A stretch of DNA of 42,812 nucleotides from a virus, in the IMG/VR virus record IMGVR_UViG_3300025300_000025, positions 1-42,812 of that record; one strand, given 5' to 3'. The translations under genes were made by a program, and so were the position numbers. Numbering within the stretch: the first letter of the stretch is position 1; each line of letters starts with the position of its first letter. This document shows positions 3,001-25,041 of the stretch, in pieces. The notes beneath the pieces were generated by a model that saw nothing but the letters and a program-made list of their open reading frames with translations, searched no databases and had not been told where the DNA came from.

Positions 3001-6000
3001 CTTTGAATCCCATATATCTCATTTGCTTAACTGTAAAATCAGTTTCTAAAATATCTAAAGTCTTTGTAATGCCATAGTTCTCTATTAATTGATTAAGGGC
3101 ATTAAAAGCTTGTTTCATTTGATTAGATGTTGTACCTGTTCCTTCTACTGGAAATAACCCTGTTTGCTTGTAGCCTTCATAAATTTTATTTGCAAAATCT
3201 AAATTACCCTCTACTGTTTGACCATTAGATGTAATAGCTATTGCAAGTTTGTATGCTTTTTCGTTAATTTCATTATCTGCTAACTCAGGATAGATAACGG
3301 ACATATTAGATATCAGTCTATCTAAAGAATCTTTATACCAATCTTCAATGTTACCTTCTGCACTTAAACCAGTTTCAACTTCTGCCGCAATTATTCTGGC
3401 AATAGTTTCTAAGTTATCATCAGTAAACTTATCTAAAGGTTTGCCATGTGTTTTTATAGCAATAGCTTGTAACTCTTTTACAATGTCAGCTATTTTTACT
3501 GAGTTTGGCGGCTTCGCTTCAATTGACGGATCATATAATAAAGATAGGGAAGATACAGGTTTTACCTTGTCATCTAAATCTATTCTTCTCACAGAGAAAG
3601 CGGGAACATCAGTCTCCCTATCTGCTGCCTCTAAATTTTCTATTTCTTGTTCTAGATAATAAGCTTCCCGTTCTAATTTCATACGAGTATAAGGTGACAT
3701 TTGATCCTGACTTAGCTGACCTCGTTTAAAATTAAGAACTTGTGTTAATTGATATATTCTATTTTGTAGATTGGATGGTCCTAAACGTATGCCTTGTTCT
3801 TCTCGCATTTTTTCGGCTGTTCTATTTCTATCGGGTTGTAGACGTACACCATCTGGTCCAAATAGTTCTCCTTGCCTAGAGAATAAAGGAACATCTCCTT
3901 CTTTTTTAAAGACAGTCGGAAAATCTTCTATAGCTTCAAGATGTCTACCTGTACCAACTACGGCTTTTAAAAATCTTACCGCTTCATCTTTTTTCTTTTC
4001 TGAAACTAATGCACCATCACCAGCTTCATATATAACTTTTCCTAAATCTGTAATTTCTCCTTCATTATGTAATTGTTCTATTTCATATACTGCTGCTTGT
4101 TTAGCTTCTTTTAAATTATTTGCATATAAACCTATAATTTCATTACCAATATATCTTTTATCATTTATAAGCATTGCATATTCTTGACCTTCGTAAAGAC
4201 TATCATCTCTATATAGTTCAACATCTACACCTAAGATTTTTCCTACATTTATATTGCCTTCTACAAATTCATCTTTAACTATTTTAAAGTCACCTATTTC
4301 TTTAATAGCTTTAGGAGCTTGGTTTAAATAACCCAAACCAAAAATATTTCCTTTACTTCCAACTTCAGTTTCTAATGGAGTCCAAAATAATCTTTCATCT
4401 GGTTTTGTTTTTACAGAAAATGCAGGTGTAGGTTGCATTGATGCAAAAGGATTGTAACCACCTAGTCCAGATGGAGTTTGATCTATATCTCTGAGTGTTC
4501 TTACTTGTCCTCTGGTTCTTCTTCCTACTCTGCCAGATTCAATATCAGCAAATAGGTCTGAAGCTTTCTGATAACCTGAATTACGAAATGCCTGACCCAT
4601 TGATTTAAAGAATTGAATAACTTTTTGAAATATAGTTTCTGCTTTAGGTGGTATATCAGGTTTAATATTTCTTGCTCTGTATAATTCTGCTATAGCTTCT
4701 TCAACATAAAGTTCTTCTGCTTTATACGGATATTTTTCTTCTAGGATTTTAAATGTAGGTTCATTTATCTCTAGTGACCTTTGATAAAAAGTTTTACCTG
4801 CAAACTTAGAATCAAATGTAGCTGGAACTTTTCTTGTCTTAGCTAACTTTCTAAGATATTTATATTCTTTTTCTGTAATTAAATCTTTAGCACGAAGTGC
4901 ATGGATCATTTCGTGATTTATTATTTTATTAAGAGCATTTTGTATTTCTTGATCTGAGGCATTGCCATCTGGATTAACAGCATTTAAAGAAACATATACA
5001 ACATCATTTATTCTATCGTACTCACCTTCAGCATCTTCTGTTTTTGTAGGATCAAGAGCAATCTTATCATCAACTTCTACAAGACCTGTAGGTGATAAAA
5101 TATCGTTACTAATAACTATGCCTGTTTCTTTAAGTCCTGTTTTGTTTAATATCTTTCTAGCTTCTTTAGCAAACTTATTAGTCTTACCTTCTTCTAGTGC
5201 TTCAGCATAATTAATTTGTTGTTGTTCTATTTCTGTTGGTGGCAACAACTTAGCTTGCTTAACTTCTTCTTCTGCAACCATCTCGTCTATCATTTCAGGT
5301 GGAAGTTTGCCTTCAGCTTCTAGCCTTGTTCTATATTCTGTAGGTGTTTCATTAAAACCTTCTGACCTGCGAGCAATCTCAAACTCAAAATTATTTACCA
5401 GTCTATAGTTTTTAGTGCCTTCTATGCGTTCAGCTCTTCCACTATAAACAAGATCATCAAGAAATCGTTGGTCTTTGCCTAATGCTTGTAATGATTTTAA
5501 ATCAAACGTAGATAATTGATCGCCAGCTTTAGCGACAAACTCATCAGTTTCTTCTGCTGTGTGTTTTCTAGTTCTGAAATCAGGGAATGGGAGTGCTTTA
5601 GTAAAGGGAGGTAGCGCATCAAGTCTTGCTAGAAATAATCTTCTAGCTCCTTCAACCTTAGTGTTAGCTATATTCTCTATGCCAGTCCATTTCTTGGCGG
5701 CATACTTTACGGCAGGGTCATTGAAGTTAAGCTCTATATTTTTCATAGCCGCAACTTCTTTGATAAATTGATTACTTATACTAGGATTAGTTAAAGCTGA
5801 CTTAGATGCTCTAAATGCAATATCTGACATTTCTTTAAGTAATTGATTAAAGTCTTGAGGGTTTAAAGCTTTTTTAGCTTCTTCTAATGTATATGTTTCT
5901 TTTAAAGGTAAGCCTTTCTTTTTTAAATGTGCAGAAGCCCTGTCTAAGTTAGTTCTCTTAGATGTTAATGGATCAAGTTTATTAAGTTTCTTTCTTAATC

Positions 6001-7474
6001 TTTTATTTTGTTTTTGTATCTGCTCAACAGACCTAGTTTTATTTCTAGATAATAATTCTTTTGAGTTATCTGTTATTTGTTTTTCTATTTTAGTCTGTTC
6101 TTCTGCTTGTTTCTGTCTAGCAGTAGAAAGATTAATATCGTAGTTCATTAATACTTGCAAAGGAACTTCAGTAATATTTTTATTATTTAATCTTTTTCCT
6201 ATTGCTAAACCAGTAGAACTGTTAATCAAACCTAGATTGTATAAGTCATTTTCTACTTTATTGTTTTCAACTTTGTTGTTGTACTCGTTAATAATCTTAT
6301 CTTTTCCAACAATAGCTTGTGTTTCGTTTTCAAAAGTATCCAATCTTTTGTTTTCTTGTAAGTCTATTAAAGAAAATTTTCCATCAGCATCTCTAGATAT
6401 TTCTATGTTTGGTGATGGTCCAATCTCATCTGGTAGTTCAAGTTCTGGTCTTACTGTAGCATCTTCTGGTTGTACTATATCTAGTGTGCCTTGAGCTTGT
6501 GCATCTAAAAATATTTTTCTTTTGTTTGCAAAATCTTTTTCTTCTATTTTTCTGTATCTCTCTTCAGCATCTTTTAAGTAAGAATCAGTAACACTTCTTT
6601 TTCTGCCACTCATACTTTTTAATACAAGGTTAGCTGTACCACCTATAATACCGCCAATAGTAAACTCATCAAATACACTCTCGCCTATTGGTAGCTCATC
6701 ACTATATAAACCAGCCGCAGTAAAATCTTGCAAGTAACTAGCCATTACTTCTTGACCACCTTCTTGAACTGCACCAGTACCAAAGTATTTAATAGCTTGC
6801 ATTATTTTGTCTTTAGTTTCTGGGTTACGCAATGCTGTCTTAGGAACTTTCTTTAAGAAACTAGTTATAGGCATTAGCTCTGTTAGTCCAATAACACCGC
6901 CAGTTAATGTAGCTAATGTTTCTGCAATAGGACCTACATCTTCACCAAGCTCTTTAGCCATCTGTATTCTATCTGCTTGTTCTGACATACCAGCAGGTAC
7001 AGCAAGAGCCGCAGGTAATTGAAATGTAGGGCTAGCTAAATCCATACCAAGAAAAGGTCTTGTTACTGCTTTTCTTCCTACTGATAAAGCTCTACCTGCC
7101 ATACCTGCACCTAAGAATGGCACAAAAGAACCAATACCTTCACCTAACTTAGTAGTAAACTTGTCTGCATATAAAGGATCAGCCGCAAGAAAAGAATCTT
7201 CTCTTAAAGATTTTTGTAATCCACGCAAGCCTTTTAATGTCGCACTATCATCGCCAATATCAGCTAGTGCAACTAATCCTTCAGGCACACTTAAAGCTAG
7301 ACTAGCAGCACCTCTAGGTATTGCTTTTAAAAACTCACCAGCTTGATCTAATGCGCTAGTATCATCTAGGTCTACACCATATCTATTTTTGACAGCAGTA
7401 ACTAACCGCATCCTTTCAGTAGGATCAGTTGGTATCTTTATTTTTTTACCATCTGGTAAAGTAAAGTTAGCCAT
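1..7474 (-). CDS. Giant polyvalent virion protein, 3' end outside window (2,491 codons visible)
   Basis: An uninterrupted reading frame starts at ATG 7474, two bases after the preceding stop, and is still open at the left edge, so the C-terminus is missing. The start MANFTLPDGKKIKIP is followed by a glycine-rich hydrophobic stretch (about residues 110-127) that could contact membrane. A zinc-metallopeptidase motif HEMIH lies at residues 854-858. A region around 1517-1535 contains VTMDRWFMRTWGR, a block I associate with large phage polyvalent proteins. Residues about 1820-1975 resemble an acetyltransferase-like (GNAT) module (weak). The last visible residues (KWVGMPATLLRDT) resemble the start of the large-polyvalent-protein domain LPD38. 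Five P-x-F-S-[VR] motifs (Phe at 1019, 1198, 1293, 1997, 2066) sit at apparent module boundaries. Its place as last gene of the ejection-protein block suggests it is carried in the virion and injected; that role is inference. Confidence 0.85.
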   Translation of the reverse strand, partial: MANFTLPDGKKIKIPTDPTERMRLVTAVKNRYGVDLDDTSALDQAGEFLKAIPRGAASLALSVPEGLVALADIGDDSATLKGLRGLQKSLREDSFLAADPLYADKFTTKLGEGIGSFVPFLGAGMAGRALSVGRKAVTRPFLGMDLASPTFQLPAALAVPAGMSEQADRIQMAKELGEDVGPIAETLATLTGGVIGLTELMPITSFLKKVPKTALRNPETKDKIMQAIKYFGTGAVQEGGQEVMASYLQDFTAAGLYSDELPIGESVFDEFTIGGIIGGTANLVLKSMSGRKRSVTDSYLKDAEERYRKIEEKDFANKRKIFLDAQAQGTLDIVQPEDATVRPELELPDEIGPSPNIEISRDADGKFSLIDLQENKRLDTFENETQAIVGKDKIINEYNNKVENNKVENDLYNLGLINSSTGLAIGKRLNNKNITEVPLQVLMNYDINLSTARQKQAEEQTKIEKQITDNSKELLSRNKTRSVEQIQKQNKRLRKKLNKLDPLTSKRTNLDRASAHLKKKGLPLKETYTLEEAKKALNPQDFNQLLKEMSDIAFRASKSALTNPSISNQFIKEVAAMKNIELNFNDPAVKYAAKKWTGIENIANTKVEGARRLFLARLDALPPFTKALPFPDFRTRKHTAEETDEFVAKAGDQLSTFDLKSLQALGKDQRFLDDLVYSGRAERIEGTKNYRLVNNFEFEIARRSEGFNETPTEYRTRLEAEGKLPPEMIDEMVAEEEVKQAKLLPPTEIEQQQINYAEALEEGKTNKFAKEARKILNKTGLKETGIVISNDILSPTGLVEVDDKIALDPTKTEDAEGEYDRINDVVYVSLNAVNPDGNASDQEIQNALNKIINHEMIHALRAKDLITEKEYKYLRKLAKTRKVPATFDSKFAGKTFYQRSLEINEPTFKILEEKYPYKAEELYVEEAIAELYRARNIKPDIPPKAETIFQKVIQFFKSMGQAFRNSGYQKASDLFADIESGRVGRRTRGQVRTLRDIDQTPSGLGGYNPFASMQPTPAFSVKTKPDERLFWTPLETEVGSKGNIFGLGYLNQAPKAIKEIGDFKIVKDEFVEGNINVGKILGVDVELYRDDSLYEGQEYAMLINDKRYIGNEIIGLYANNLKEAKQAAVYEIEQLHNEGEITDLGKVIYEAGDGALVSEKKKDEAVRFLKAVVGTGRHLEAIEDFPTVFKKEGDVPLFSRQGELFGPDGVRLQPDRNRTAEKMREEQGIRLGPSNLQNRIYQLTQVLNFKRGQLSQDQMSPYTRMKLEREAYYLEQEIENLEAADRETDVPAFSVRRIDLDDKVKPVSSLSLLYDPSIEAKPPNSVKIADIVKELQAIAIKTHGKPLDKFTDDNLETIARIIAAEVETGLSAEGNIEDWYKDSLDRLISNMSVIYPELADNEINEKAYKLAIAITSNGQTVEGNLDFANKIYEGYKQTGLFPVEGTGTTSNQMKQAFNALNQLIENYGITKTLDILETDFTVKQMRYMGFKVSKELVTESLLFSSIFGSKIGGAFYPNLIGNFDTVTMDRWFMRTWGRITGTLIDGNPNVLNKNIATLRKSLSRERAESLDIDYDEMQADDDAAIEAGVKVFRDFSKKDETGKSFTNKDAADNKAARAISQIIGGNIQPKTGQQKIFIRRAMNRAVEVLAENGIDTDIATAQAVIWKPEQELYKKLGSSNIEPNDRDYGTISDRLIKEGNYDQESLDRARREYVRRSGLQESYSQTRRGLEAKGKSRFIKSNVVKEIRREFDRNFRREDSKKPSRAYTRKTGGNAQVTLSDGTTVPVDLNASHTIKKNSTAYNALLVAGVTPINFLELKPQHANVFSKAMELAENNTKSSAVYRYSIPEYQDMRMFLSADGSVGFALKPDGHLVSLFKDATSDIKNASVASLFLGVEQGGRKLDAFDTVLPDLYAMNGFKAVSRLNWNPNEAPDNWNPQEFMAFNRGQPDVVFMVYDPNNYNDYQLNDGQLVEDYADAASIQEQNLPTQNVLDIPLFSRKRRDSSQGNSSEAIARRRAVKNAEETVKRTPRGNIPHYNLNASDVAIEAAYNFNNDPTAPTPEIPKFSVAATAEPDWLTETTDRVGRSTTKKTQFESIMDVIQNPVENIRYMFRQARTLFVDKLSAVEKQLLKAQEPEWYLQEGRINPKTKKAWTEQEAEEQSRAFRLLDNNIITRTMAYLRLADRSRGVFQGMLTMGFVTDRVVDENAEDGTSESIAVIERMALVDANGKETGEYGAFMQFMAPLYQRTDFDMVGIFGTYGKIMRPEMINVKTGEAIPSPITDADRAKGKRIEKEFPEVVAAYKNYQNWNNKLVEFAQKKGILTAEQAAEWIANSHYYPYYRDMAMTEEELERAKIKAPTISGGALPQNPLDIPLKGADTPITVDPIEAISRNSLSILTAALKNDGTVKLLKDLETMGLAENMGVTRNRKFDNDGNPITDANYVHAYEDGQKYFYNVKDMEIFEALSSVGGSSTSTLTKWVGMPATLLRDT

Positions 7475-7476
7475 AT

Positions 7477-8733
7477 TTATTGCACAGTAGCAGCATCAAT
7501 TGCAGACGCATCTGATTGTTGTGATGCTTCTATTCCAAGCTCAAGACTATAAGCATTATTTACTTCAGCCAGTCGTTTAGCCGCTTCAGTTGCACCAGCT
7601 ATATTATTAGACTCCATCATAGCTGTTATTTGTGCAGATAAAGTAGAAGCTAGTTTATACAACTGATCAGCTTTATTGTACTCACCTTGAGAGTTATAGT
7701 AATTAACTTTAGCTTGTATTTCTTGTAATTGAGCTTCTACAAGTGGAGCTTCTCTTTTCCTAGTTTGTATATCACTTGCTATACCACTAAGACCTTTGGC
7801 TAACTCGCTAGTATCCCTAGCACCCATGAGGGCAAACCCCATGCGAGCCATATCATAAGGATCAAACCCAGTTTCGCTGCCTCTAGGTACAGAATCCCCA
7901 GACTCACTAGTAAGCCCGTTTCCAACATCTCCCTGAGTATCATCTATTTCTCCAGTTAAATCGCCATCTCCAAGACCGCTTGCATAAGCTATACCTCCTA
8001 TACCGCCAGCAAGACCAGCTCTTCTTTGAATTATGCTTCCTAATTTGCTTGCTGGAATGCTTTTACCCGGAGCAACTCCCATTCTTTTTAAATATGCCGC
8101 TTTCATTTTTGGAGACATTCTATTAAAAGCAAATTTACCTATTGGTTCTGATACTTTTTTTGCATAACCAGCACCAAATCTTTTTGCTAATGCAGGTATT
8201 CCATATCTTCCTAAAGCCCATAAACCTTTAGCTCCAAGACCAATAGGATTAAACATAGTTGCGGCAGTTAATCCTGTAAGACCTGCTTTAGTCAAATTTA
8301 TACTCCCATCTGGATTACGGAAACTATACCACGCTGGTGAACCACCTCTTTCTTCTGGTGAACCACCTTCTTGGTAGCCAGTCCTTCCGCCTTGAGCCAT
8401 AAGTGCGGGCATCCCACCTGATGAAGTAATTTCGGATGAGGAAGGCGGAACACCCGCTAAACCTTGTGGACCTCCTGCTAAATCTTGAGCGCCTCCTGCT
8501 AAACCTTGTGGACCTCCTGTAAAATTAGCAACAACTTCATCCGCTACAGTAGTGCTTGGTTTTTCCATTGCCACTCTTTCAGCGTTATACGCTTTTTCTA
8601 ATAGTGTTCGTCTTTGTATTTCACTGAGAACTAAATAAGAAGGGTATCCGGCATCAGGATTATTGACCATTTGTGCCAGTTGATCTTTAGGCACATATTC
8701 TAACTCTGCTGCTGCTTCTATTAAGTTTGCCAT
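7477..8733 (-). CDS. Probable internal virion / ejection protein (418 aa)
   Basis: ATG overlaps the previous stop (TAATG). The N-terminal 70 residues are charged and helical. They are followed by a Gly/Ala-rich segment with three near-identical eight-residue repeats (GGPQGLAG type, residues 73-94) and the motif AQGGRTGYQEGG at 113-124. Residues about 145-275 are rich in hydrophobic glycine/alanine helices that look membrane-interacting, and the C-terminus is helical and polar. I recognise no enzyme. Position between another internal-protein candidate and the giant polyvalent protein, plus a GGRxGYQ motif shared with the LysM protein, suggests a particle component delivered at infection. That is inference from context. 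Confidence 0.7.
   Translation of the reverse strand: MANLIEAAAELEYVPKDQLAQMVNNPDAGYPSYLVLSEIQRRTLLEKAYNAERVAMEKPSTTVADEVVANFTGGPQGLAGGAQDLAGGPQGLAGVPPSSSEITSSGGMPALMAQGGRTGYQEGGSPEERGGSPAWYSFRNPDGSINLTKAGLTGLTAATMFNPIGLGAKGLWALGRYGIPALAKRFGAGYAKKVSEPIGKFAFNRMSPKMKAAYLKRMGVAPGKSIPASKLGSIIQRRAGLAGGIGGIAYASGLGDGDLTGEIDDTQGDVGNGLTSESGDSVPRGSETGFDPYDMARMGFALMGARDTSELAKGLSGIASDIQTRKREAPLVEAQLQEIQAKVNYYNSQGEYNKADQLYKLASTLSAQITAMMESNNIAGATEAAKRLAEVNNAYSLELGIEASQQSDASAIDAATVQ
8452..8517 (-). repeat. Three tandem copies of an 8-residue Gly/Ala repeat
   Basis: This in-frame tandem repeat lies inside the 418-residue virion protein (residues 73-94). The units read GGPQGLAG, GAQDLAGG-like and GPQGLAG, and the DNA repeats as cctgctaaa(c/t)cttg blocks. 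It probably forms a flexible linker and is a likely site of copy-number change. Confidence 0.75.
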
Positions 8734-16404: not shown

Positions 16405-16815
16405 TTAACCCTCTACTATCATTATTCTTAGTCTTTCGCTTCTCGCTCCAACCTGTTTACTCCATTTGCTGTCCATCATTTCTATACCGGCTTTTTCCCA
16501 ATCTTTTGCTTCCATTGCTGCAAGAAATTTTTTAAAACCGAGTAATCTGGTTAGACCTAGATTGAAACACATATTGATTAATGCTCTTGCACGAACATCG
16601 TTTAAATCCTTATACCAATCAAATGTTTTATTCAATTCTTTCGTGCATTGAATAATATCATTTACCAGTAAATATTCTATTTCATCTTGAGATAAGCCAA
16701 CTTCCTGAATATTTCTGCCAACACCGATTGTCCATATGCCCAATGAATCCTGATAAGCTTTATGCTCAATTCCTTCATCCCGTTTCAATTCTTCAATTAG
16801 TTTCTCGTTATCCAT
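16405..16815 (-). CDS. Endolysin: T4-type lysozyme (GH24 muramidase), 136 aa
   Basis: The catalytic triad region of T4 lysozyme is intact: E14 in RDEG, D23 in YQDSLG and T29 in WTIGVGRN. Downstream family motifs are ALINMCFNLG and a tryptophan region (DSKWSKQVGARSERL). It should cut the MurNAc-GlcNAc bond of peptidoglycan at lysis. No signal peptide or SAR segment is seen, so it depends on a holin, which is the gene immediately upstream. The stop abuts the next gene's ATG. Confidence 0.95.
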   Translation of the reverse strand: MDNEKLIEELKRDEGIEHKAYQDSLGIWTIGVGRNIQEVGLSQDEIEYLLVNDIIQCTKELNKTFDWYKDLNDVRARALINMCFNLGLTRLLGFKKFLAAMEAKDWEKAGIEMMDSKWSKQVGARSERLRIMIVEG

Positions 16816-16820
16816 ATTCT

Positions 16821-17300
16821 TTATGATTTTTCTTCTTTATTAGAAGCTCCAAAATAAAAACTAGATATACCTGATACAAGACCACCTAAATATCCTAATA
16901 CCAAACTAACAATAGTGTCGCTATTTTGATCTGGAGGTAAAATAGTTACAGTAAATATGTAACCCACAAAAGCTATCAAAGCAATAAGACCAAATACTTT
17001 TGGAGTCCAATCTTCTTTAAAAGCTTTTCTGGCATCTTGTATATCCTGTGTTTCAAGGGCATATAGATCAACATCGAGTTCTTTCATCTTTACTTCAAAG
17101 TCAGCATCAATCTTTTTAAGTTCTGTAAGTTGCTCTGGTGTTGCTGCTTGCATGGCTTGTTCTATTTTTTTTGGAGCAGGATCACATCCTAATACGTCAG
17201 CCACCATATTTGCTGCCATATTTCCCATTGGACCGCCTAAAGCCGTACCAATTGTAGGAGCTACAGCACCGATAATATTTTTTATAAGTTTAAACTTCAT
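16821..17300 (-). CDS. Holin, 3-TM gene-transfer-agent type (159 aa)
   Basis: Residues 9-38 form a glycine-rich amphipathic or hydrophobic segment. A charged helical linker follows (about 40-95), then two clear membrane helices (about 99-120 and 128-150) and a short charged tail. The pattern GAVAPTIGTALGGPMG with a C-terminal WTPKVFGLIALIAFVGY matches the Holin_3TMs family known from gene transfer agents and marine phages. It would permeabilise the inner membrane and release the lysozyme encoded 5 bp downstream. Confidence 0.85.
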   Translation of the reverse strand: MKFKLIKNIIGAVAPTIGTALGGPMGNMAANMVADVLGCDPAPKKIEQAMQAATPEQLTELKKIDADFEVKMKELDVDLYALETQDIQDARKAFKEDWTPKVFGLIALIAFVGYIFTVTILPPDQNSDTIVSLVLGYLGGLVSGISSFYFGASNKEEKS

Positions 17301-17322: not shown

Positions 17323-19104
17323 TTAACTGTAATTGTTTTCCCATGTATATACTTCTAATGGTTTTTCTTTTCCTTTAACTTCAATAGGTTGCAATGATTT
17401 TAATTTAAAATTACTGTACTTAGAAGTTTCTTCACCAATCAGTACATTAACTCCTGCTACTTTTGTCGCACTTTCCAATCTTGCAGCTACATTACAGGGA
17501 TCACCGATAAGGGAAAAAGCAAATCTATCCGTAGCACCAAAGTTACCTGCAATACAAATACCTGAATTGACACCTATACCTATCGCTATTTCAGGGATTC
17601 CTTCTTCTTTAAACTTTTTATTTAATTCAATTATATTTGTTTCTATCTGTCTTGCAGCCTGTAAAGCTAAATTATGGTGATCTTCCTGCGGTAAAATAGT
17701 ATTCCAGTGAAACATTCCAGCATCACCAATAAATTTATCAGTGACCCCTTCATATTGATTGACCGCATTTACCTGAACATTCAATACATTATTCATTATG
17801 TAAGTTACCTGCTCTGGTTCAACAGATTCAGATAAACTGGTAAATCCTCTAAGATCAGTAAAAATAATACTGCAATCCCTTCGCGCTCCATTAACTTTAC
17901 ATAATGCAGGGTTATCCTGTAATTTCTTAACCATTCTAGGATCAAGATATTTGCCAAATTGCTTTTTAATCTGTTGTCTAAGTTTATATTGCTGCCTAAA
18001 TCTTAGATAAAATGCCGTAGCTCCTGCTATAAACTGGCATATTAAAGTCCAAGTAACATCGACCAATAATCCATGTTGTATCATATAGAAGCCGAAATAC
18101 GCGCTTACAGACATTATTGCTGCAAATAGGCTAATACCTAGCGTAATACCAAATAAAAGCAATACAAGCCAAATAAGAGCCACTGAGAAAAAAAGTATCA
18201 GCATCTCTAATGCTAAAGCATAATCAGGTATATAAGGGCTATCTTCTATTAAAATACTTTCAGCCAAAGCTGCCTGTATTTTATGTGGTTCCAATAAACC
18301 TACTGGAGTAGCAAGTTGAGGCATTACTCCTTTGGCAGTGACACCGACAAATACAAACTTACCTTCTACATCCATTTCTTCCAAAGTTGTCTGTGGTGTA
18401 TCTACCCAACTGATCCACTTTCTGCCAAACGAATCCACTTTCACGGCAGGTAAACCTCTAACCCTTATTTCTTCTAAACCATTTTGATTTGTCTTTATGA
18501 CATAAGTATCAGCATCTACCAATACTTTTAATACTTCTGTGCCATAAGCAGGAACCCAACCATCAGGAGTACGCATTAATAATGGTAAACGCCTGACTAG
18601 ATTATCTATATCAGTTCTTGCTACTGCTATCCCTTCATTGGCAACCTCTGACAACATTGGAATATTGTTAAGCACACCTTGTGATTCAATACCGCCAGTA
18701 TCTTCCCCCAATATGACTGTACCAATCGTCTTGGGATATTGGTTATTATTATTTTCAAATAAAGGCAGAACCGAAGGTGCATAACTCAAGGATTCGGCAA
18801 AAGCATCATCGCCACCCAATCTATCTTTATGTGGGAATCCAATAACCCAACCTACTCCTATAGCACCTTTTTGTAGTAATTCTATCTGTATTTCAGCCAA
18901 TCTTTGTCTAGGTAAAGGATACCCGCCTTCTTTATCAATATCTTCTTCAGTGATATTGAGAATTGTAAAGTAACCCGAAGGTGGCTTTTCAGCGACTAAA
19001 GCATCAAAAGTCTTTAGTTTTAGTACCTCTAAAGGTTCCCATTGGAAAGATACTGGAATAAAAAATAATACAATTAATGCAAATAATTGCACATATCTAA
19101 TCAT
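17323..19104 (-). CDS. CHASE2-domain transmembrane class III adenylate/guanylate cyclase (593 aa)
   Basis: Architecture: TM helix 4-20, extracytoplasmic CHASE2 sensor (about 25-290, with IEEDID-like and PLPRQRLAEI motifs), three TM helices (about 296-366), a short linker and a complete class III catalytic domain (about 405-590). Metal aspartates D417 (IFTDLRGFTSL) and D461 (KFIGDAG), Lys457, and transition-state N538 and R542 (NVAARLE) are all present. The second purine-recognition position is Ser531 (FSLIGD) where Thr or Asp is usual, so ATP is the likelier substrate. It should make cyclic nucleotide in the cytoplasm in response to an unknown periplasmic signal. Its start overlaps the end of the second curlin gene by 8 bp, tying it to the curli cassette. 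A full-length membrane cyclase in a phage late operon is highly unusual. Confidence 0.92.
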   Translation of the reverse strand: MIRYVQLFALIVLFFIPVSFQWEPLEVLKLKTFDALVAEKPPSGYFTILNITEEDIDKEGGYPLPRQRLAEIQIELLQKGAIGVGWVIGFPHKDRLGGDDAFAESLSYAPSVLPLFENNNNQYPKTIGTVILGEDTGGIESQGVLNNIPMLSEVANEGIAVARTDIDNLVRRLPLLMRTPDGWVPAYGTEVLKVLVDADTYVIKTNQNGLEEIRVRGLPAVKVDSFGRKWISWVDTPQTTLEEMDVEGKFVFVGVTAKGVMPQLATPVGLLEPHKIQAALAESILIEDSPYIPDYALALEMLILFFSVALIWLVLLLFGITLGISLFAAIMSVSAYFGFYMIQHGLLVDVTWTLICQFIAGATAFYLRFRQQYKLRQQIKKQFGKYLDPRMVKKLQDNPALCKVNGARRDCSIIFTDLRGFTSLSESVEPEQVTYIMNNVLNVQVNAVNQYEGVTDKFIGDAGMFHWNTILPQEDHHNLALQAARQIETNIIELNKKFKEEGIPEIAIGIGVNSGICIAGNFGATDRFAFSLIGDPCNVAARLESATKVAGVNVLIGEETSKYSNFKLKSLQPIEVKGKEKPLEVYTWENNYS

Positions 19105-19894
19105 ACTGATTGACTGTAATCGTTTTATTGCAAGTACCAGTGCAATCCAATGTTACTGTGTAATTCTGGTTCGTTGAGCCTGATTGTGTAGCATTAACTG
19201 TATAACTACCCTGTTTTACTAAAATATTCCCGACATGAGTGCCATTACCACTTTGCGTTAGATTGACTGTATTGTTATCTGATGGGTTATTTCTAAATTC
19301 TATATCCCCGTCTTTAGCACCACTACCTGATTGTGTAATCGTTGCATCATTATTATTGCAATTACCACAGGATTTTATGTAAGCGTTATGGTTTCCTGTT
19401 CCAGATTGTGTGATTGTCCAGTCAGAATAATCACCGAAAGCGTACATCTTGGCGTAGAAATCATCCCCTGTTTGGCTAATGATATAGTTATTGTTATCAC
19501 CGCCCATATATATCTCAGCATAATCATCATTTCCTATCTGGGTAATGGTGGTAACATTATTACTGTAATCCAGATCAAGGTAAGCGGTGTTATTATCCCC
19601 TTCCTGCTGAATCGTATATTCATTATTCGTATGATTAGTAAACTGTGAATAGGCTTTTGCAAGGTTTCCATCGCCAGTCTGGTCTATATCAATATCGGCA
19701 TTGGTGCATAAATGAGTATCAAAAGTGCCATCGGACAATCCGCACCATACCCTCGCGGTATTACCTGCACCTATCTGATCTACCAGAATCTCAGTACCAC
19801 TGCCTTTGGTTCTTACTTCAACAGTATTATCTGCCGCCCATAAGGGAAGGCTAATTAGACTGATTAATAGTAATCGAACTATCGCCACCACCAT
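19097..19894 (-). CDS. Secreted curlin-repeat (CsgA/CsgB-like) protein 2 (265 aa)
   Basis: A signal peptide (RLLLISLISLPLWA, cleavage near residue 20) precedes about nine curlin-type repeats of the Q-x-G-x-x-N pattern: VDQIGAGNTA, IDQTGDGNLA, QQEGDNNTA, TQIGNDDYA, SQTGDDFYA, TQSGTGNHNA, TQSGSG, TQSGNGTH and TQSGSTNQN. These form cross-beta strand-turn-strand units in curli amyloid. Unlike E. coli CsgA it carries closely spaced cysteine pairs (SCGNC, DCTGTC and a longer pair near residues 50-60). The ORF starts 44 bp inside the FecR gene; this ATG is needed to retain the signal peptide. The probable role is an extracellular amyloid subunit exported through the CsgG pore. Confidence 0.85.
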   Translation of the reverse strand: MVVAIVRLLLISLISLPLWAADNTVEVRTKGSGTEILVDQIGAGNTARVWCGLSDGTFDTHLCTNADIDIDQTGDGNLAKAYSQFTNHTNNEYTIQQEGDNNTAYLDLDYSNNVTTITQIGNDDYAEIYMGGDNNNYIISQTGDDFYAKMYAFGDYSDWTITQSGTGNHNAYIKSCGNCNNNDATITQSGSGAKDGDIEFRNNPSDNNTVNLTQSGNGTHVGNILVKQGSYTVNATQSGSTNQNYTVTLDCTGTCNKTITVNQYD

Positions 19895-20930
19895 TGATTG
19901 TTGCCCTTATTTGTTTTCCAGCAGTTAAAATATTAAGGTTATAAGCTCCTTCCTTATCCAGTTCCAAATCAACTGTATTTTCCACTTGCCTGAAAATGGT
20001 TAATATTTCACCTTCCACGAAGGTATAAGTCTGATTATTCTGGTCAAATCCTGCCAATATTCCTTCCAATTGAACTCCATCCAACTCACTGACCTTTTCT
20101 TTATCTTTACCGACATCTTCAATGACATCCAATAAATCAGCAAGAAAATCCACGTTCAATAGGTCTATATCTAAACGATTGACTTCATCCAACTCATTCT
20201 CATCAAGATCATTCTCATCCAGTTCAGTTTCTTCCAGTAAATCAACATCCAGTATATTGGAAGCTGTAGCACTTTGTTCTTCCACAGCCCTTTCAATTTC
20301 ATCTGGCGGATTAACAATTAATAAATTATCAATAAAATCAAGGGTTAAGTTGATTAAAACTACTGGCTTTGTCGGCATGGATTCACCTACACTGACCATC
20401 GTTGCCTGAAAAGGCTCGTTTAGCACCACAGTACCTGCTAACGAATCTACTGTTATTTCTCCTGACGAAGTTCCATCTGCATCAGGTAAAAGAATAACCA
20501 GACTTCTGCCTATCTCATCTACTGTAGTAGTGAAATCAGTTCCACGAATCGCAATATTGGCTGTTGGAGTCTTAATACTGATATTTTCTTTATTGATCCT
20601 GCCTAATGCGCCTGTAATAAATCTTGCCGTACCACTAGCCATACGAAGTGCCATCTTGCTTTTGGCTGGATTAGGATCATAAATATACTCGTCAATAATA
20701 ATCTTGGAATGTTCTGTCAACCTAACTGTAGAAGAATCAAGAAACTCAATAGCTATTCGACCATCGCCAGTACGGACATCATCAAAAGAAAAAATATCTA
20801 AAGCTAGCTCTGCCAATAATTTATCCTGCTGGTTAGTGCGTAAAACTTCACTATTTCCTCTTAATTCAGATATTTCTCCTACCTGTGCAAAAGAAACAAC
20901 AGGAATAAGCGCTAACAACCACTTGTGCAT
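19851..20930 (-). CDS. Secreted FecR-domain protein with acidic linker (359 aa)
   Basis: A signal peptide (LLALIPVVSFA, cleavage before Q16) leads into a FecR-type beta-rich domain (about 45-150) with VRTGDGRIAIEFLDSSTVRL and TPTANIAIRGTDF (121-133). A strikingly acidic region (about 228-285) repeats the unit LDEN/ELDE (ELDENDLDENELDE). The C-terminal 60 residues are beta-rich and end NGGGDSSITINQSN, reminiscent of a single curlin-like strand. FecR domains act as periplasmic sensors or envelope-anchored partners, and FecR proteins are often encoded beside CHASE2 cyclases. The gene overlaps curlin genes at both ends (19 bp and 44 bp). No TonB receptor or sigma factor is nearby, so classical iron-citrate signalling is unlikely. 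Confidence 0.85.
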   Translation of the reverse strand: MHKWLLALIPVVSFAQVGEISELRGNSEVLRTNQQDKLLAELALDIFSFDDVRTGDGRIAIEFLDSSTVRLTEHSKIIIDEYIYDPNPAKSKMALRMASGTARFITGALGRINKENISIKTPTANIAIRGTDFTTTVDEIGRSLVILLPDADGTSSGEITVDSLAGTVVLNEPFQATMVSVGESMPTKPVVLINLTLDFIDNLLIVNPPDEIERAVEEQSATASNILDVDLLEETELDENDLDENELDEVNRLDIDLLNVDFLADLLDVIEDVGKDKEKVSELDGVQLEGILAGFDQNNQTYTFVEGEILTIFRQVENTVDLELDKEGAYNLNILTAGKQIRATINGGGDSSITINQSN

Positions 20931-21619
20931 TGATCTATATCAATCGTGCCGCTTGTTGTTGTTGATACAATATTCACGATACCACTGGTGCTTGCGCCAC
21001 TATTTGTTTGGTCAATGTCAATATTATTGCTATTACCTGTGATAGAAGCAGTAATGGAATGGTCTGCATTACCTGTTTGGGTAGTGTCTATATCGTTACC
21101 ATCCCCACTTACTGTCCAGTTATTAATACAACCCACAACCTCACAGGTGGCATTAATGTTGTTTGAAGTTCCTGTTACCGCAAAATCCTGATTACCACCT
21201 GTGGCAGTGGCTGCTGCTCCTTGTGTCATCACAAGAACATTACTGTCTCCTGTGGCTGCATAATCAAAATCCGTACCTGCTATATCTCCAGTGGCACCAC
21301 CAGCGAGGGTAGTGACATTACTATCGCCTGTCGTATTAACTGTAAAACTACTGTTATTGGCTTGAACAGCACTTGCTGCAAGCGTATTACTATCGCCTAC
21401 TTGGTCAATATCAACAGTGACTGTCGATCCAGTAAACGTAGCTCTAGCTTGCGCTGATCCCACAGTATTACTATTGCCAATCTGGTCGATATTCATTGTT
21501 AATCCAGTTCCAGATTGGGTAATATATATCAGGTTATTTGCTCCAAAAGCGACACTTGCAGTACAAGCTAAAACCAAAAGTATAAAAGATGACATTCCCA
21601 TAATAATAAAATGTCTCAT
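20912..21619 (-). CDS. Secreted curlin-repeat (CsgA/CsgB-like) protein 1 (235 aa)
   Basis: A signal peptide (FIILVL-type core, residues about 4-26, cleavage near AFG-A) is followed by curlin-style repeats: ITQSGTG, IDQIGNSNTV, IDQVGDSNTL, TTGDSNV, ATGDSNVLVMTQ, TQTGNADHSI, ITGNSNNIDIDQ and a terminal IDIDQCTSGC. Several units have lost the leading Gln, so this copy is more diverged than the second curlin. Four cysteines occur in two spaced pairs (CEVVGC, CTSGC). The start is fixed by a strong GGAGG six bases upstream, lying inside the csgG stop region. It is the likely nucleator or major subunit for the CsgG exporter encoded immediately upstream; which of the two curlins nucleates cannot be told. 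Confidence 0.85.
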   Translation of the reverse strand: MRHFIIMGMSSFILLVLACTASVAFGANNLIYITQSGTGLTMNIDQIGNSNTVGSAQARATFTGSTVTVDIDQVGDSNTLAASAVQANNSSFTVNTTGDSNVTTLAGGATGDIAGTDFDYAATGDSNVLVMTQGAAATATGGNQDFAVTGTSNNINATCEVVGCINNWTVSGDGNDIDTTQTGNADHSITASITGNSNNIDIDQTNSGASTSGIVNIVSTTTSGTIDIDQCTSGC

Positions 21620-21620
21620 A

Positions 21621-22403
21621 TCAATCCTCCGTCTTTATATCCCATACATCTCTATCAATTCCTTGTTTAATTAATGCGTAAACTGCTGTTTCTATGGCAG
21701 ATTTTACTGCATATCCCGTTGTTTCATTCTCAGTTATCCCTGATTCCAGTTCAACTAATTCGGTCCCGTTTTCCGTAAATCTAAAACCATCCATACCAGC
21801 ACCAACAGAAAATATTGTTTTGCTTGCTGATACATTTAAAATTATCTCTCCAGTTTGGACAAGAACAGCTCTTAAAGCTACTGTAACACGATCCCTTCTG
21901 TATTGATTAGTCAATCCTATCCCTAAATAACGCGCTCCCGTACCACCAGTCTGGTAATTGGCATCATAAGAAATAATGCCTCCTTCCATGATTAATCCCG
22001 AATATAATAACGGCATTAATTTATTGGCACCTTCTCCATCGTAACTATTCCTAGTAGAAACAATGAGTTGCCTTTCCCTAGTTAAATGGTCTAAACCGAC
22101 ACGTTCAGCAACAGTGAACCAGCTTCCTTTTCCTGCATTAATCAATGCTTCGATTAAGTATAAATCAGCGCCTTGAGTAACGGCTGTGCTGAATAAAGCC
22201 ATATTATCTGCTGACTTACGTTGTCCAGTCAGATCGGGAAACTTATAAACAGAAACAACCGCTTTCTGTTCTGGAACGGGTAAATCTATAAGTGCTTGCA
22301 AGGAAGGTCTTTCAATGATTGGACCTTCAGTATCTCCTACTACAGTTATTCCAGCACATCCTGAAATTAACAAAAAATACAACCATATGATTAAGGTACG
22401 CAT
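21621..22403 (-). CDS. csgG: CsgG-like curli secretion channel, outer-membrane lipoprotein (260 aa)
   Basis: The lipobox I-S-G-C places the lipidated Cys at residue 16. From about residue 35 the protein follows E. coli CsgG closely: LIDLPVPEQKAVVSVYKFPDLTGQ, FSTAVTQGA, the ER-x-GL-x-x-L block, IMEGGIISYDANYQTGGTGARYLGIG, QYRRDRVTVALR, TGEII, SKTI and SAIETAVYALI-x-x-GIDR-x-VWD. CsgG forms a nonameric outer-membrane pore exporting curlin subunits. By eye, the constriction loop differs from E. coli: the Tyr51 and Asn55 positions are replaced and one residue is inserted, while the Phe56 equivalent (F71) is kept. It starts 13 bp inside csgF, so the two are co-expressed. Confidence 0.95.
   Translation of the reverse strand: MRTLIIWLYFLLISGCAGITVVGDTEGPIIERPSLQALIDLPVPEQKAVVSVYKFPDLTGQRKSADNMALFSTAVTQGADLYLIEALINAGKGSWFTVAERVGLDHLTRERQLIVSTRNSYDGEGANKLMPLLYSGLIMEGGIISYDANYQTGGTGARYLGIGLTNQYRRDRVTVALRAVLVQTGEIILNVSASKTIFSVGAGMDGFRFTENGTELVELESGITENETTGYAVKSAIETAVYALIKQGIDRDVWDIKTED
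21626..21630 (-). promoter_or_regulatory. Strong Shine-Dalgarno of curlin gene 1
   Basis: A perfect GGAGG lies six bases before the ATG at 21619 and overlaps the last codons of csgG. High translation of the first fibre subunit relative to the pore would be expected from this arrangement. Confidence 0.7.
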
Positions 22404-22897
22404 TCATCTGAAGAACAGATACCAAAAGACCCTACAGGAATTATAATCTCTGTTGTTACTCCATCTTCATCAATAATAGTTAATATAATCTCCGTACCAG
22501 TATTAACAAAAGTAATCACATTACCTTCCAAAACAATACTTCCGCCTGTGCCGCCTGTGTCACTATTAAACAGGGATTCAGCAAGATCACGGGAAAGCTG
22601 GGAATAAATGCGAGATTCCAGATTTCTAAGAAATTTAGCTAAAGTAGTGTTATCGGCATCTCTAGCAGCTTCGTTTAAAGCGGATTCTATATCTTCGGCA
22701 ATCTTTTCCCTTCTGGAATTTTCCTGCTCATCTATAGTTAAATAATGGGCTGATGTACCAATACCACTAAAAGAAGGGTTATGAAACTTAAATGTAATAA
22801 TATCTGCTTTGATTGAAGCAGAACAAAAAGATAGCAAGATTAACCACCCTATTATTAACAATCCGTTATCATTTAATCTTTTTATTCTTTTTTTCAT
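22391..22897 (-). CDS. csgF: CsgF-like curli assembly factor (168 aa)
   Basis: A signal peptide (LLIIGWLILLSFCSASIKA, cleavage near residue 31) is followed by DIITFKFHNPSFSGIGTSAHYL (32-53). This is the diagnostic CsgF N-terminal peptide (E. coli GTMTFQFRNPNFGGNP...) that inserts into the CsgG pore and forms a second constriction. A charged helical middle (about 55-110) and a C-terminal beta hairpin region (IVLEGNVITFVNTGTEIILTI) match the family layout. The product should couple the secretion pore to fibre nucleation at the cell surface. The start overlaps the upstream membrane gene by 29 bp; no separate promoter is visible. Confidence 0.92.
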   Translation of the reverse strand: MKKRIKRLNDNGLLIIGWLILLSFCSASIKADIITFKFHNPSFSGIGTSAHYLTIDEQENSRREKIAEDIESALNEAARDADNTTLAKFLRNLESRIYSQLSRDLAESLFNSDTGGTGGSIVLEGNVITFVNTGTEIILTIIDEDGVTTEIIIPVGSFGICSSDECVP

Positions 22898-23132
22898 GTT
22901 TAGCAGACTCTCTTAATTCAATTACAGTATCGAGTTTTTGTTGAAGTCGAATGATGTCATTATCCAGCATTCTAATTCTGTCAATTAACTCAATTAAGGT
23001 AACAGAAGTTTCTGATAATTTCTTTTTTATATTATTAGTAATAAACCCCCAAATAAAATAAATCATATATAGCAGACCAACTGTAGCTACGATAGGAAAT
23101 CCGTATTCGCTGATGATTGTAGCTATATCCAT
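22869..23132 (-). CDS. Small single-TM protein with coiled coil (87 aa)
   Basis: The N-terminal segment ISEYGFPIVATVGLLYMIYFIWGFI (residues about 7-31) is a membrane helix. A charged heptad-like helix follows (about 35-75, with LIELIDRIRMLDNDIIRLQQKLDTVIEL), then a very basic tail. It resembles the neighbouring 93-residue protein (shared GFPI before the helix, similar length and topology), suggesting duplication. It is possibly a holin accessory or XhlA-like membrane protein; the exact role is unknown. Confidence 0.65.
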   Translation of the reverse strand: MDIATIISEYGFPIVATVGLLYMIYFIWGFITNNIKKKLSETSVTLIELIDRIRMLDNDIIRLQQKLDTVIELRESAKHEKKNKKIK

Positions 23133-23413
23133 TAATCCCTTCTAGCATCTTCTTTGCCATTAGCTCTAGCTATCCTTTCAAGGTCAGGTCGAATACCAAT
23201 AACACTACATAAGGTAGCATCCATTCGGATCATATCGTGATTCATTGTTTTTACTCGATTATCCAATGAAGAAACAATACCATGTATAGCATCTACTTGA
23301 CCAATAACGCTTTCCAAAATGTACTTGATAGTAAGAAATATGAAGAATCCGCCAATCAAAGCCATAGCAATAGGAAAACCAACATCAGCTATTAATGAAA
23401 ATACCTCATTCAT
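23132..23413 (-). CDS. Small single-TM protein with coiled coil, paralogue-like (93 aa)
   Basis: Membrane helix at about residues 8-34 (IADVGFPIAMALIGGFFIFLTI), then a helical stretch (IHGIVSSLDNRVKTMNHDMIRMDATL). Topology and the GFPI motif match the downstream 87-residue protein. It is linked to its neighbours by stop/start contact on both sides (TAATG at 23132). It is probably an inner-membrane protein made late in infection; a lysis-timing role is speculation. Confidence 0.65.
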   Translation of the reverse strand: MNEVFSLIADVGFPIAMALIGGFFIFLTIKYILESVIGQVDAIHGIVSSLDNRVKTMNHDMIRMDATLCSVIGIRPDLERIARANGKEDARRD

Positions 23414-23836
23414 TTATTCAACTGGTGTATACATACCAGCATCAATTAATTTTTGTCTATTAACTAAATGTTCTGCTTCTATGTCATCTTTAGATTGACC
23501 AAAGTAAGCTACAGCTAAATTATTAGCTATCATGGCTTGATTTATATTAACGCCATCAACAACAACATCTCCTAAAACTCTACCAAATTTACCTTTAGAA
23601 TCTTTTAATTTAGTTTGTATGATAACTTTATTGCCGTTATCTACAGCGACTTGTAAAAATGCACCAGCTAGTTTACCTCTAACTTTTTCATCTTTATCTC
23701 GTGTCCTAGATTCGGGCGTATCAATGCCGTAAAGACGAACCCTAGAACGATAAAGAATATCGAAGCCCAAGTCCAAAATAACATCAATAGTATCGCCATC
23801 AACGACTCTATCAACTTTACAACTATATTCATACAT
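23414..23836 (-). CDS. Staphylococcal-nuclease-like (thermonuclease) protein (140 aa)
   Basis: The SNase fold motifs are all present: VVDGDTIDV (D13, D15), VRLYGIDTPES (R34, D39, E42) and GKFGRVLGDVVVDG (R86), which supply the calcium site and the two catalytic arginines with the catalytic glutamate. No signal peptide is seen, so it acts in the cytoplasm or is carried in a particle. Phage SNase homologues may degrade host DNA or process nucleic acid. TAATG coupling joins it to the 54-residue membrane protein upstream. Confidence 0.92.
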   Translation of the reverse strand: MYEYSCKVDRVVDGDTIDVILDLGFDILYRSRVRLYGIDTPESRTRDKDEKVRGKLAGAFLQVAVDNGNKVIIQTKLKDSKGKFGRVLGDVVVDGVNINQAMIANNLAVAYFGQSKDDIEAEHLVNRQKLIDAGMYTPVE

Positions 23837-24015: not shown

Positions 24016-24192
24016 TTAAAAAAGTTGACCTGTCAGTATACTTCCCATACCTAATAATAACGTAACGAGGGTTGCAACAATAAAGATTTCAACCCTTTTT
24101 ACACGATTAAGTATTTCTAACCAACGCTCCGCACAAACTGCTTCATGCTTCGCTAAATCTGTTACCACTTGATTCACAGTCATTTTCGCCAT
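24016..24192 (-). CDS. Small XhlA-like membrane protein (58 aa)
   Basis: ATG 24192 overlaps the oxygenase stop (TAATG). The N-terminal half is a charged helix (VNQVVTDLAKHEAVCAERW) and the C-terminal half a membrane helix (about 34-54, VEIFIVATLVTLLLGMGSIL). This layout, a short coiled coil then one TM, resembles haemolysin XhlA-type phage membrane proteins that assist holins. Similarity is by pattern only. Confidence 0.6.
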   Translation of the reverse strand: MAKMTVNQVVTDLAKHEAVCAERWLEILNRVKRVEIFIVATLVTLLLGMGSILTGQLF

Positions 24193-24887
24193 TAAGCTGC
24201 TTCTTTTACATCCCAGCAGTTTAAATTTGCTGCAACTGTTCTTCTCTCACCCTCTCCAAAGAAAGGATATACCATATGCTGTAAGCCATTGGGAAACATA
24301 TATTGCACCCCTACTTCTGGCTTAACCACACAACTTTGTGGTGGAAACAATCTATCTGCATCCATCAATGAATTTCTACCATATTGAAACGCTAAACAGC
24401 CATCACTATGCCCTGAATCATTATACAAACTGTATTCTGTGGTGCCTGATGTTGGCTGGTCTAAAATCTGTTGTGGCACTTTAGTCCATGTCGTACAGGA
24501 AATTCCTGTTATGGTTTTTGTGCCGTGATCGTGAATCGGGTTATAGTCTCCCTCAAAACTATGTACCGACCAAAGTTCGTCTAGGTCTACCTGTTTATTA
24601 GTCTTAAATTTAACCCCTGTGGAATTAATGAAATGATTAATATAGGCAACCCCTAAGTTACATAAATATTCTGTATATGGCTTAACACGCTCATCGTCAG
24701 TAGGGGGAATATTTAACTGCTCTCCCTGATGAATCTGCCCGACTAGGGTTTTTGCCAAAGATTCCCTTTCTTCATCTTCCCGTAATTCATCCAAGTAATC
24801 ATTTAATCCTTCAACCAATCCGTCAGGTATTTTTGCCTTTAACATAAATACGGCTGGCATTGTATAGATTTCTACTTCATGTTCCAT
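24192..24887 (-). CDS. Putative 2-oxoglutarate/Fe(II) oxygenase (231 aa)
   Basis: I place the start at ATG 24887 because AAAGGAAA lies just upstream; an in-frame ATG at 24935 would overlap the preceding small gene. The core YNPIHDHG (H119, H121) with FPNGLQHMVYPF (H204) and EGERRTVAANLN (R215/R216) follows the metal-ligand and 2-oxoglutarate-binding order of the phage 2OG-FeII oxygenase family common in marine viruses. It probably hydroxylates a protein, nucleotide or small molecule; the substrate is unknown. Its place just after the fibre gene raises the possibility of modifying a virion protein. Confidence 0.75.
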   Translation of the reverse strand: MEHEVEIYTMPAVFMLKAKIPDGLVEGLNDYLDELREDEERESLAKTLVGQIHQGEQLNIPPTDDERVKPYTEYLCNLGVAYINHFINSTGVKFKTNKQVDLDELWSVHSFEGDYNPIHDHGTKTITGISCTTWTKVPQQILDQPTSGTTEYSLYNDSGHSDGCLAFQYGRNSLMDADRLFPPQSCVVKPEVGVQYMFPNGLQHMVYPFFGEGERRTVAANLNCWDVKEAA

Positions 24888-24897
24888 ATTATTTCCT

Positions 24898-25041
24898 TTA
24901 AGGCAATTGCTGATGTTCTTGCCATAATTGACCAAAAGAACTACTAGCTTCTTGATGCTCTACAGATTTATCGTTATCGTTAAATAAGATAAAGCCTATT
25001 ATTACAGTTCCTACTGTAAGTAGTTTTAATACATCCTGCAT
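24898..25041 (-). CDS. Small membrane protein (47 aa)
   Basis: A short frame starts MQDVLKLLTVGTVIIGFILF, giving a single membrane helix (about 4-20), followed by an acidic/polar tail ending QLWQEHQQLP. It fits exactly between neighbouring genes (4 bp after one stop, 10 bp before the oxygenase ATG). The ribosome site is weak, so translation may be coupled to the upstream gene. The function is unknown. Confidence 0.5.
   Translation of the reverse strand: MQDVLKLLTVGTVIIGFILFNDNDKSVEHQEASSSFGQLWQEHQQLP

Follow-up and report, generated by a model that had tools for sequence, protein, structure and literature searches.

A putative CHASE2 adenylate cyclase at the end of a marine phage curli cassette and its possible link to a FecR-domain protein

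The viral curli cassette and its copy in the window

A viral type VIII secretion (T8SS, curli) cassette that includes an adenylate cyclase was described by Wittmers et al. in 2022 for HTVC023P-type podoviruses and for pelagimyophages, which are myoviruses; that paper reports its transfer between phage families, its ocean-wide occurrence and its transcripts (PMC9599517). CsgG and CsgF are also described in a pelagimyophage paper (PMC7029224) and in the report on phage Melnitz (PMC9004378), and the cyclase gene is annotated in GenBank for the isolates HTVC008M (KC465899) and Melnitz (MZ577097). The cyclases of these two isolates have the same CHASE2-cyclase architecture as the protein studied here and likewise close a CsgF-CsgG-curlin-FecR-curlin block, although they are only 32-33% identical to it.

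The stretch of DNA analyzed here (hereafter, the window) is a virus record of 42,812 bases. Its terminase and capsid are 52-57% and 58-63% identical, respectively, to those of HTVC023P, HTVC027P, and 023Pt_psg01, and by these two proteins the virus is classified as an HTVC023P-type podovirus; the capsid of a Planktothrix-type phage is nearer to the window capsid, at 70% identity. The cassette and the two genes that follow it are listed below in the order of transcription; the coding sequences of the cassette abut or overlap one another.

23132..23413, minus strand: 93-aa coiled-coil protein, small and with one TM segment, paralogous to the product of 22869..23132 (phrog_18771, E 2e-29; no kinase domain)
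22869..23132, minus strand: small one-TM coiled-coil protein, 87 aa, in the slot of the published 'HK' (phrog_18771, E 3e-28; weak match to holin phrog_4898; no Pfam kinase domain)
22391..22897, minus strand: CsgF-like curli assembly factor (PF10614, E 2e-12)
21621..22403, minus strand: CsgG outer-membrane curli pore with an N-terminal lipobox-like ISGCAG (PF03783, E 7e-48)
20912..21619, minus strand: first curlin-repeat protein, CsgA/B-like (PF07012 below the cut-off, 18.0 vs 20.7 bits; curlin motif density; cassette position)
19851..20930, minus strand: FecR-domain protein with a hydrophobic N-terminus, a FecR beta-domain, an acidic low-confidence linker and a curlin-like C-terminal strand, ITINQSN (PF04773, E 1e-12; C-terminal motif; I355/Q357; AlphaFold2 and Foldseek)
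19097..19894, minus strand: second curlin-repeat protein, CsgA/B-like, with a hydrophobic N-terminus, overlapping the cyclase start (PF07012, E 3e-15, 3 stretches; hydropathy)
17323..19104, minus strand: CHASE2-class III nucleotidyl cyclase, last gene of the cassette (PF05226 and PF00211; phrog_35576, E 5e-118; catalytic residues; four TM helices)
16821..17300, minus strand: small membrane protein 3' of the cyclase, candidate holin by its position (phrog_1544 of unknown function, E 1e-28; two C-terminal TM segments)
16405..16815, minus strand: phage lysozyme (endolysin) (PF00959, E 5e-15)

By these matches, the block is identified as a curli cassette with the cyclase as its last gene. The window CsgG is 45-47% identical to CsgG of Melnitz and HTVC008M. 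The original prediction had placed the cyclase in a phage late operon, and terminase, portal, capsid, tail, and lysis genes do lie around it; the curli and FecR genes beside it had been missed.

Compared with the cassette of PMC9599517, the window has the same genes, phage type, and terminal cyclase, and the published order (CsgF, CsgG, CsgA/B, FecR, second CsgA/B, cyclase) is found here. The window is thus a further copy of a cassette known since 2022, and the cyclase alone is unsurprising. Relatives of the window cyclase are encoded on 186 viral-contig stretches and relatives of the HTVC008M cyclase on at least 585; given these hundreds of contigs and the 2022 description, a membrane cyclase in a phage is not unique, and the view that it would be very unusual finds no support.

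The two cassettes differ at their 5' ends, where the small genes before csgF in the window are devoid of any histidine-kinase feature. No kinase domain was found by Pfam in the 87- and 93-aa proteins, and the family to which they belong (79-122 aa) has no conserved His. Their position and copy number lead us to infer that they correspond to the genes published as 'HK', in which case the gene published as a 'histidine kinase' appears to encode a small one-TM coiled-coil protein; this indicates that the label needs correction.

Domains, active site and selection of the cyclase

The cyclase gene of this marine phage is an ATG-start ORF of 593 aa. Pfam placed CHASE2 (PF05226, E 5e-25) at residues 16-309 and Guanylate_cyc (PF00211, E 1e-18) at residues 410-586, both far over the cut-off. 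An AlphaFold2 model, computed from an alignment without the Melnitz row, contained four long hydrophobic helices (2-19, 296-317, 320-343, and 351-382) with a pLDDT mostly of 70-90, against a mean of 65 for the whole model. The sensor domain is therefore flanked by a single TM helix on its N-terminal side and by three on its C-terminal side, the layout of other CHASE2 receptors, and the predicted full CHASE2 sensor with four TM helices is borne out.

Alignment with CyaC and CyaB identified the two metal-binding Asp residues of a class III cyclase (D417 and D461) and the transition-state residues N538 and R542; these, together with K457, are at the positions first proposed for them, and the Ser noted at the second base-recognition site is S531. 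Across 83 viral homologues, which include a few near-identical copies of the window virus, D417, K457, D461, and R542 were invariant, and N538 and S531 were each kept in 82, Melnitz being the sole change at both sites. The solved relatives of the protein, found by sequence and by Foldseek, are CyaB, CyaC, and Cya2. The adenylyl cyclases CyaC (1wc0) and CyaB (3r5g) share its catalytic fold, catalytic residues, and purine-site Lys, but have Thr in place of Ser and carry other sensor domains; the guanylyl cyclase Cya2 has Glu and Gly at the two purine sites. K457 and S531 thus fit the adenylyl-type pairing of Lys with Asp, Thr, or Ser, and such a combination of Lys with Ser or Thr is found in class IIIb cyclases that use ATP. 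The choice between ATP and GTP, which had been left open, was treated too cautiously: the enzyme is predicted to use ATP rather than GTP and to make cAMP.

Pairwise dN/dS had a median of 0.17 and a maximum of 0.32 (1139 pairs from 81 podoviral genes; a simple method applied to intact ORFs only). The podoviral copies are under strong purifying selection and the gene is undecayed, which, with the intact catalytic residues, upholds the statement that it is not decayed cargo.

Phylogeny, recurrence and loss

The original prediction had asked for a phylogeny of the catalytic domain. In a tree of 46 cyclases, made by a quick method and unrooted, the window protein fell in a podoviral clade (SH-aLRT 100), the pelagimyophages and Melnitz formed a second clade (98), and 29 bacterial proteins lay beyond a branch with a support of 98. 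Contamination by host sequence was considered and ruled out, since the window protein groups in the tree with viral sequences at 100% support.

Contigs of podoviruses and of myoviruses repeatedly show the order small-TM, CsgF, CsgG, curlin, FecR, (curlin), cyclase. Three hits were filed as cellular. One of them (L085; NZMJ01000081.1, a Maricaulis MAG) carries the whole phage curli cassette, and its MAG contains five HTVC023P-type capsid genes and is therefore rich in phage contigs. Another (L084; PBPT01000002.1, assigned to a Neomarinimicrobiota MAG) encodes DNA polymerase and helicase-type proteins, and its MAG also holds HTVC023P-type capsid genes. Judged by gene content, these two look like misbinned phage; the third (L087) is also phage-like and bears a phage-type cassette. 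In L084, a DNA cytosine methyltransferase-like gene (1694-2857) stands between FecR and the cyclase and replaces the second curlin. In HTVC008M, the second curlin-repeat protein (L002, 4583-5908) has a PA14-like domain (E 3e-6), possibly a sugar-binding part of the fibre.

Cyclase-seeded scans favour contigs that bear the gene, and the CsgG-seeded sample is a small one of 19 loci, several of which come from one virus. Four CsgG-seeded contigs (L239, L242, L245, and L254) have no cyclase. L239, whose CsgG is 95% identical to that of the window, has a spanin-like pair (a reading made by eye) and an endolysin (lysozyme) at 6354-7561, after the second curlin and in the place of the cyclase. Fibre genes and FecR can thus remain where the cyclase has been lost. 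In the Melnitz cyclase (L003, 5974-8025), the catalytic Asn is replaced by Ser and the residue at the S531 site is Asp, and on account of these two changes the enzyme may be inactive or altered. Loss in some close relatives and the missing Asn of Melnitz are what would be expected if the cyclase were inert baggage; against this stand the strong purifying selection and an active site that is invariant in podoviral and pelagimyophage copies, and we regard baggage as highly improbable.

The replacement in L239 also bears on a role in lysis or egress, in which CsgG would serve as a pore of the pinholin or secretin kind, with lysis timed by the cyclase and FecR. A lysozyme was called in 70 of 80-odd mostly podoviral loci, usually just 3' of the cyclase, and a phrog_1544 gene in 25 of them; the small upstream proteins weakly resemble a holin family, and a role of this kind for CsgGF of Melnitz was proposed by its authors (PMC9004378). 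However, a bare pore would have no use for the two curlin-repeat genes retained in many podoviruses and myoviruses, the pore formed by CsgG lies in the outer membrane, and the myoviral cassettes of HTVC008M and Melnitz adjoin tail and baseplate genes. These points make a lysis cassette unlikely.

The FecR-domain protein and a possible route from fibre to cAMP

The phage FecR proteins end in a short conserved motif. [IVL]x[IVLFA]xQ occurred within the last 10 residues of 106 of 107 distinct proteins, the exception being a split ORF; since the 107 are homologous, this count reflects conservation rather than independent events. The same tail was found in 0/151 cyclases, 0/70 CsgG proteins, and 221/2566 of all ORFs, and in none of the CsgF or small-TM proteins. 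I355 and Q357 were invariant in the FecR alignment, in which podoviral and myoviral proteins are approximately 37% identical. In a profile-profile comparison, the FecR tail matched the second curlin's end (E 1e-4), and the tails of the cyclase and CsgG, used as controls, scored 0.73 and 0.65 against the same profile; a control match of the cyclase tail to the first curlin at E 0.014 indicates that E-values of single profile pairs are not exact. A curlin-repeat HMM gave no signal above shuffles in FecR, so that the evidence for a curlin-like tail comes from the conserved motif and the profile comparison, and the tail is best described as a degenerate, curlin-like strand. The C-terminus had low confidence in the AlphaFold2 model and was not used as proof. 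Foldseek matched the FecR model to the signalling domain of PupR (E 1e-4) and, with a weak score (E 5e-3), to 5ix9, a bacterial 'cell surface anchoring domain'. The curlin-like end goes unmentioned in the accessible text of PMC9599517.

That paper suggested that the module regulates curli in response to iron by virtue of its FecR. The name and the FecR domain speak for this, as does the iron limitation of open-ocean bacteria (PMC9599517). FecI-FecR-FecA signalling involves an anti-sigma domain, a FecI sigma factor, and a TonB-dependent receptor; Pfam found no anti-sigma domain in the phage FecR, only the periplasmic domain PF04773 behind a hydrophobic N-terminus, and neither a FecI sigma factor nor a TonB-dependent receptor was seen among the cassette genes. 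Going by its domain content, the phage FecR is not an iron anti-sigma protein. These findings weaken the iron reading, as do FecR-CHASE2 pairs which, in two reports, concern biofilm and surface signalling (PMC5192318; PMC9239204), and we give it very little credence.

Such pairs are found in bacteria near the phage cyclase's own relatives. Among the nearest bacterial CHASE2 cyclases, from Alphaproteobacteria, a FecR-domain gene lay within a few kb in 12/31 loci, a count that leaves out L233, where the gene called as FecR overlaps the cyclase from the opposite strand; a FecR-domain gene was directly adjacent in 7. Approximately 0.4 would be expected from the density of FecR genes (64 in ~81 Mb). 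Of five such bacterial FecR proteins that were scanned, four formed the N-termini of long adhesins of the RTX, VWA, cadherin, or Ig type. CsgG was found in none of the 11 genomes with the nearest CHASE2 cyclases that were searched. The FecR tail and these adhesin neighbourhoods may already have been reported elsewhere, for example in subscription literature.

Precedents for the pairing are described in reports on Burkholderia, in which FecR and a CHASE2 kinase act in biofilm control (BiofilmReg, PMC5192318), and on Campylobacterota, in which FecR clusters with CHASE2 cyclases (PMC9239204). As in the phage, an exported FecR-domain protein stands beside a CHASE2 receptor, and the cyclase forms have cAMP as their output; unlike in the phage, no curli genes are described in the accessible parts of these reports, and the output in Burkholderia is a kinase. 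In Sinorhizobium (S.) meliloti, an outer-membrane protein is reported to mediate activation of the CHASE2 cyclases CyaD1, CyaD2, and CyaK, and CyaD1 without CHASE2 gives constitutive cAMP; the CHASE2 part appears to restrain the cyclase.

On sequence grounds, the intact cyclase and its CHASE2 domain, the cassette with its recurring gene order, selection, and the curlin-like end of FecR can be taken as established. We infer that the CHASE2 adenylate cyclase may be the signalling output of the phage-borne curli cassette, with the state of FecR and the fibre gating cAMP, a reading to which we give an even chance. More tentatively, and with the balance of probability against it, the cassette could form a closed sensory loop in which the curlin-stranded FecR reports assembly or secretion of the amyloid fibre to the cyclase, so that fibre status is converted into cAMP. 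In the first of these two readings, curlin subunits would be exported through CsgG/CsgF late in infection, and FecR, either periplasmic or at the base of the fibre, would contact the subunits or the fibre by its C-terminal strand. The periplasmic CHASE2 domain would read this state and switch cytoplasmic production of cAMP from ATP, and cAMP would in turn affect Crp-type regulators or metabolism of the host and so adjust the surface state or the timing of lysis. The bacterial arrangement of a FecR-headed surface adhesin with a CHASE2 cyclase would thereby be re-used with amyloid fibres.

A link from fibre through FecR to CHASE2 is favoured by the cassette and the catalytic residues, the recurring order, the FecR tail, the bacterial FecR-adhesin neighbourhoods, the matches of the FecR model, and the precedents from Burkholderia, Campylobacterota, and S. 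meliloti. Against it stand the dispensability of the cyclase, as seen in the four contigs that have none; Melnitz, which has no transition-state Asn and for which no clumping was seen in culture (PMC9004378); and the degenerate FecR tail repeat, with the silence of the repeat HMM and the low model confidence.

The same dispensability fits an active cyclase that works independently of the fibre in host takeover, its cAMP reprogramming host transcription or metabolism, and that sits in the cassette merely through joint capture. The conserved catalytic residues and the dN/dS of 0.17 are equally expected of such an enzyme, and PMC9599517 describes transfer of the cassette between phage families as a block. 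Yet both CHASE2, which is conserved with the catalytic domain, and FecR, which is present in nearly all sufficiently long contigs, would be superfluous for a constitutive cyclase, and the pairing of the two is found in bacteria too. We consider fibre-independent takeover rather doubtful. Both the FecR tail and the bacterial loci that combine FecR, adhesins, and CHASE2 cyclases point to a testable wiring of fibre, FecR, CHASE2, and cAMP for curli cassettes carried by phages of abundant marine bacteria, and both weaken the iron-regulator reading.

Over the whole window, an Rfam search gave no match, and sigma-70-like promoter sites were fewer than in shuffles. Positions 1-7400 appear poor in ORFs because open-ended ORFs are absent from the ORF list; recoding was considered for this stretch and rejected, as it is one giant minus-strand ORF of ~2490 aa that runs off the low end of the window. 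Just upstream of the cassette lie genes for a 2OG-Fe(II) oxygenase (24192-24935) and a thermonuclease-like protein (23414-23836).
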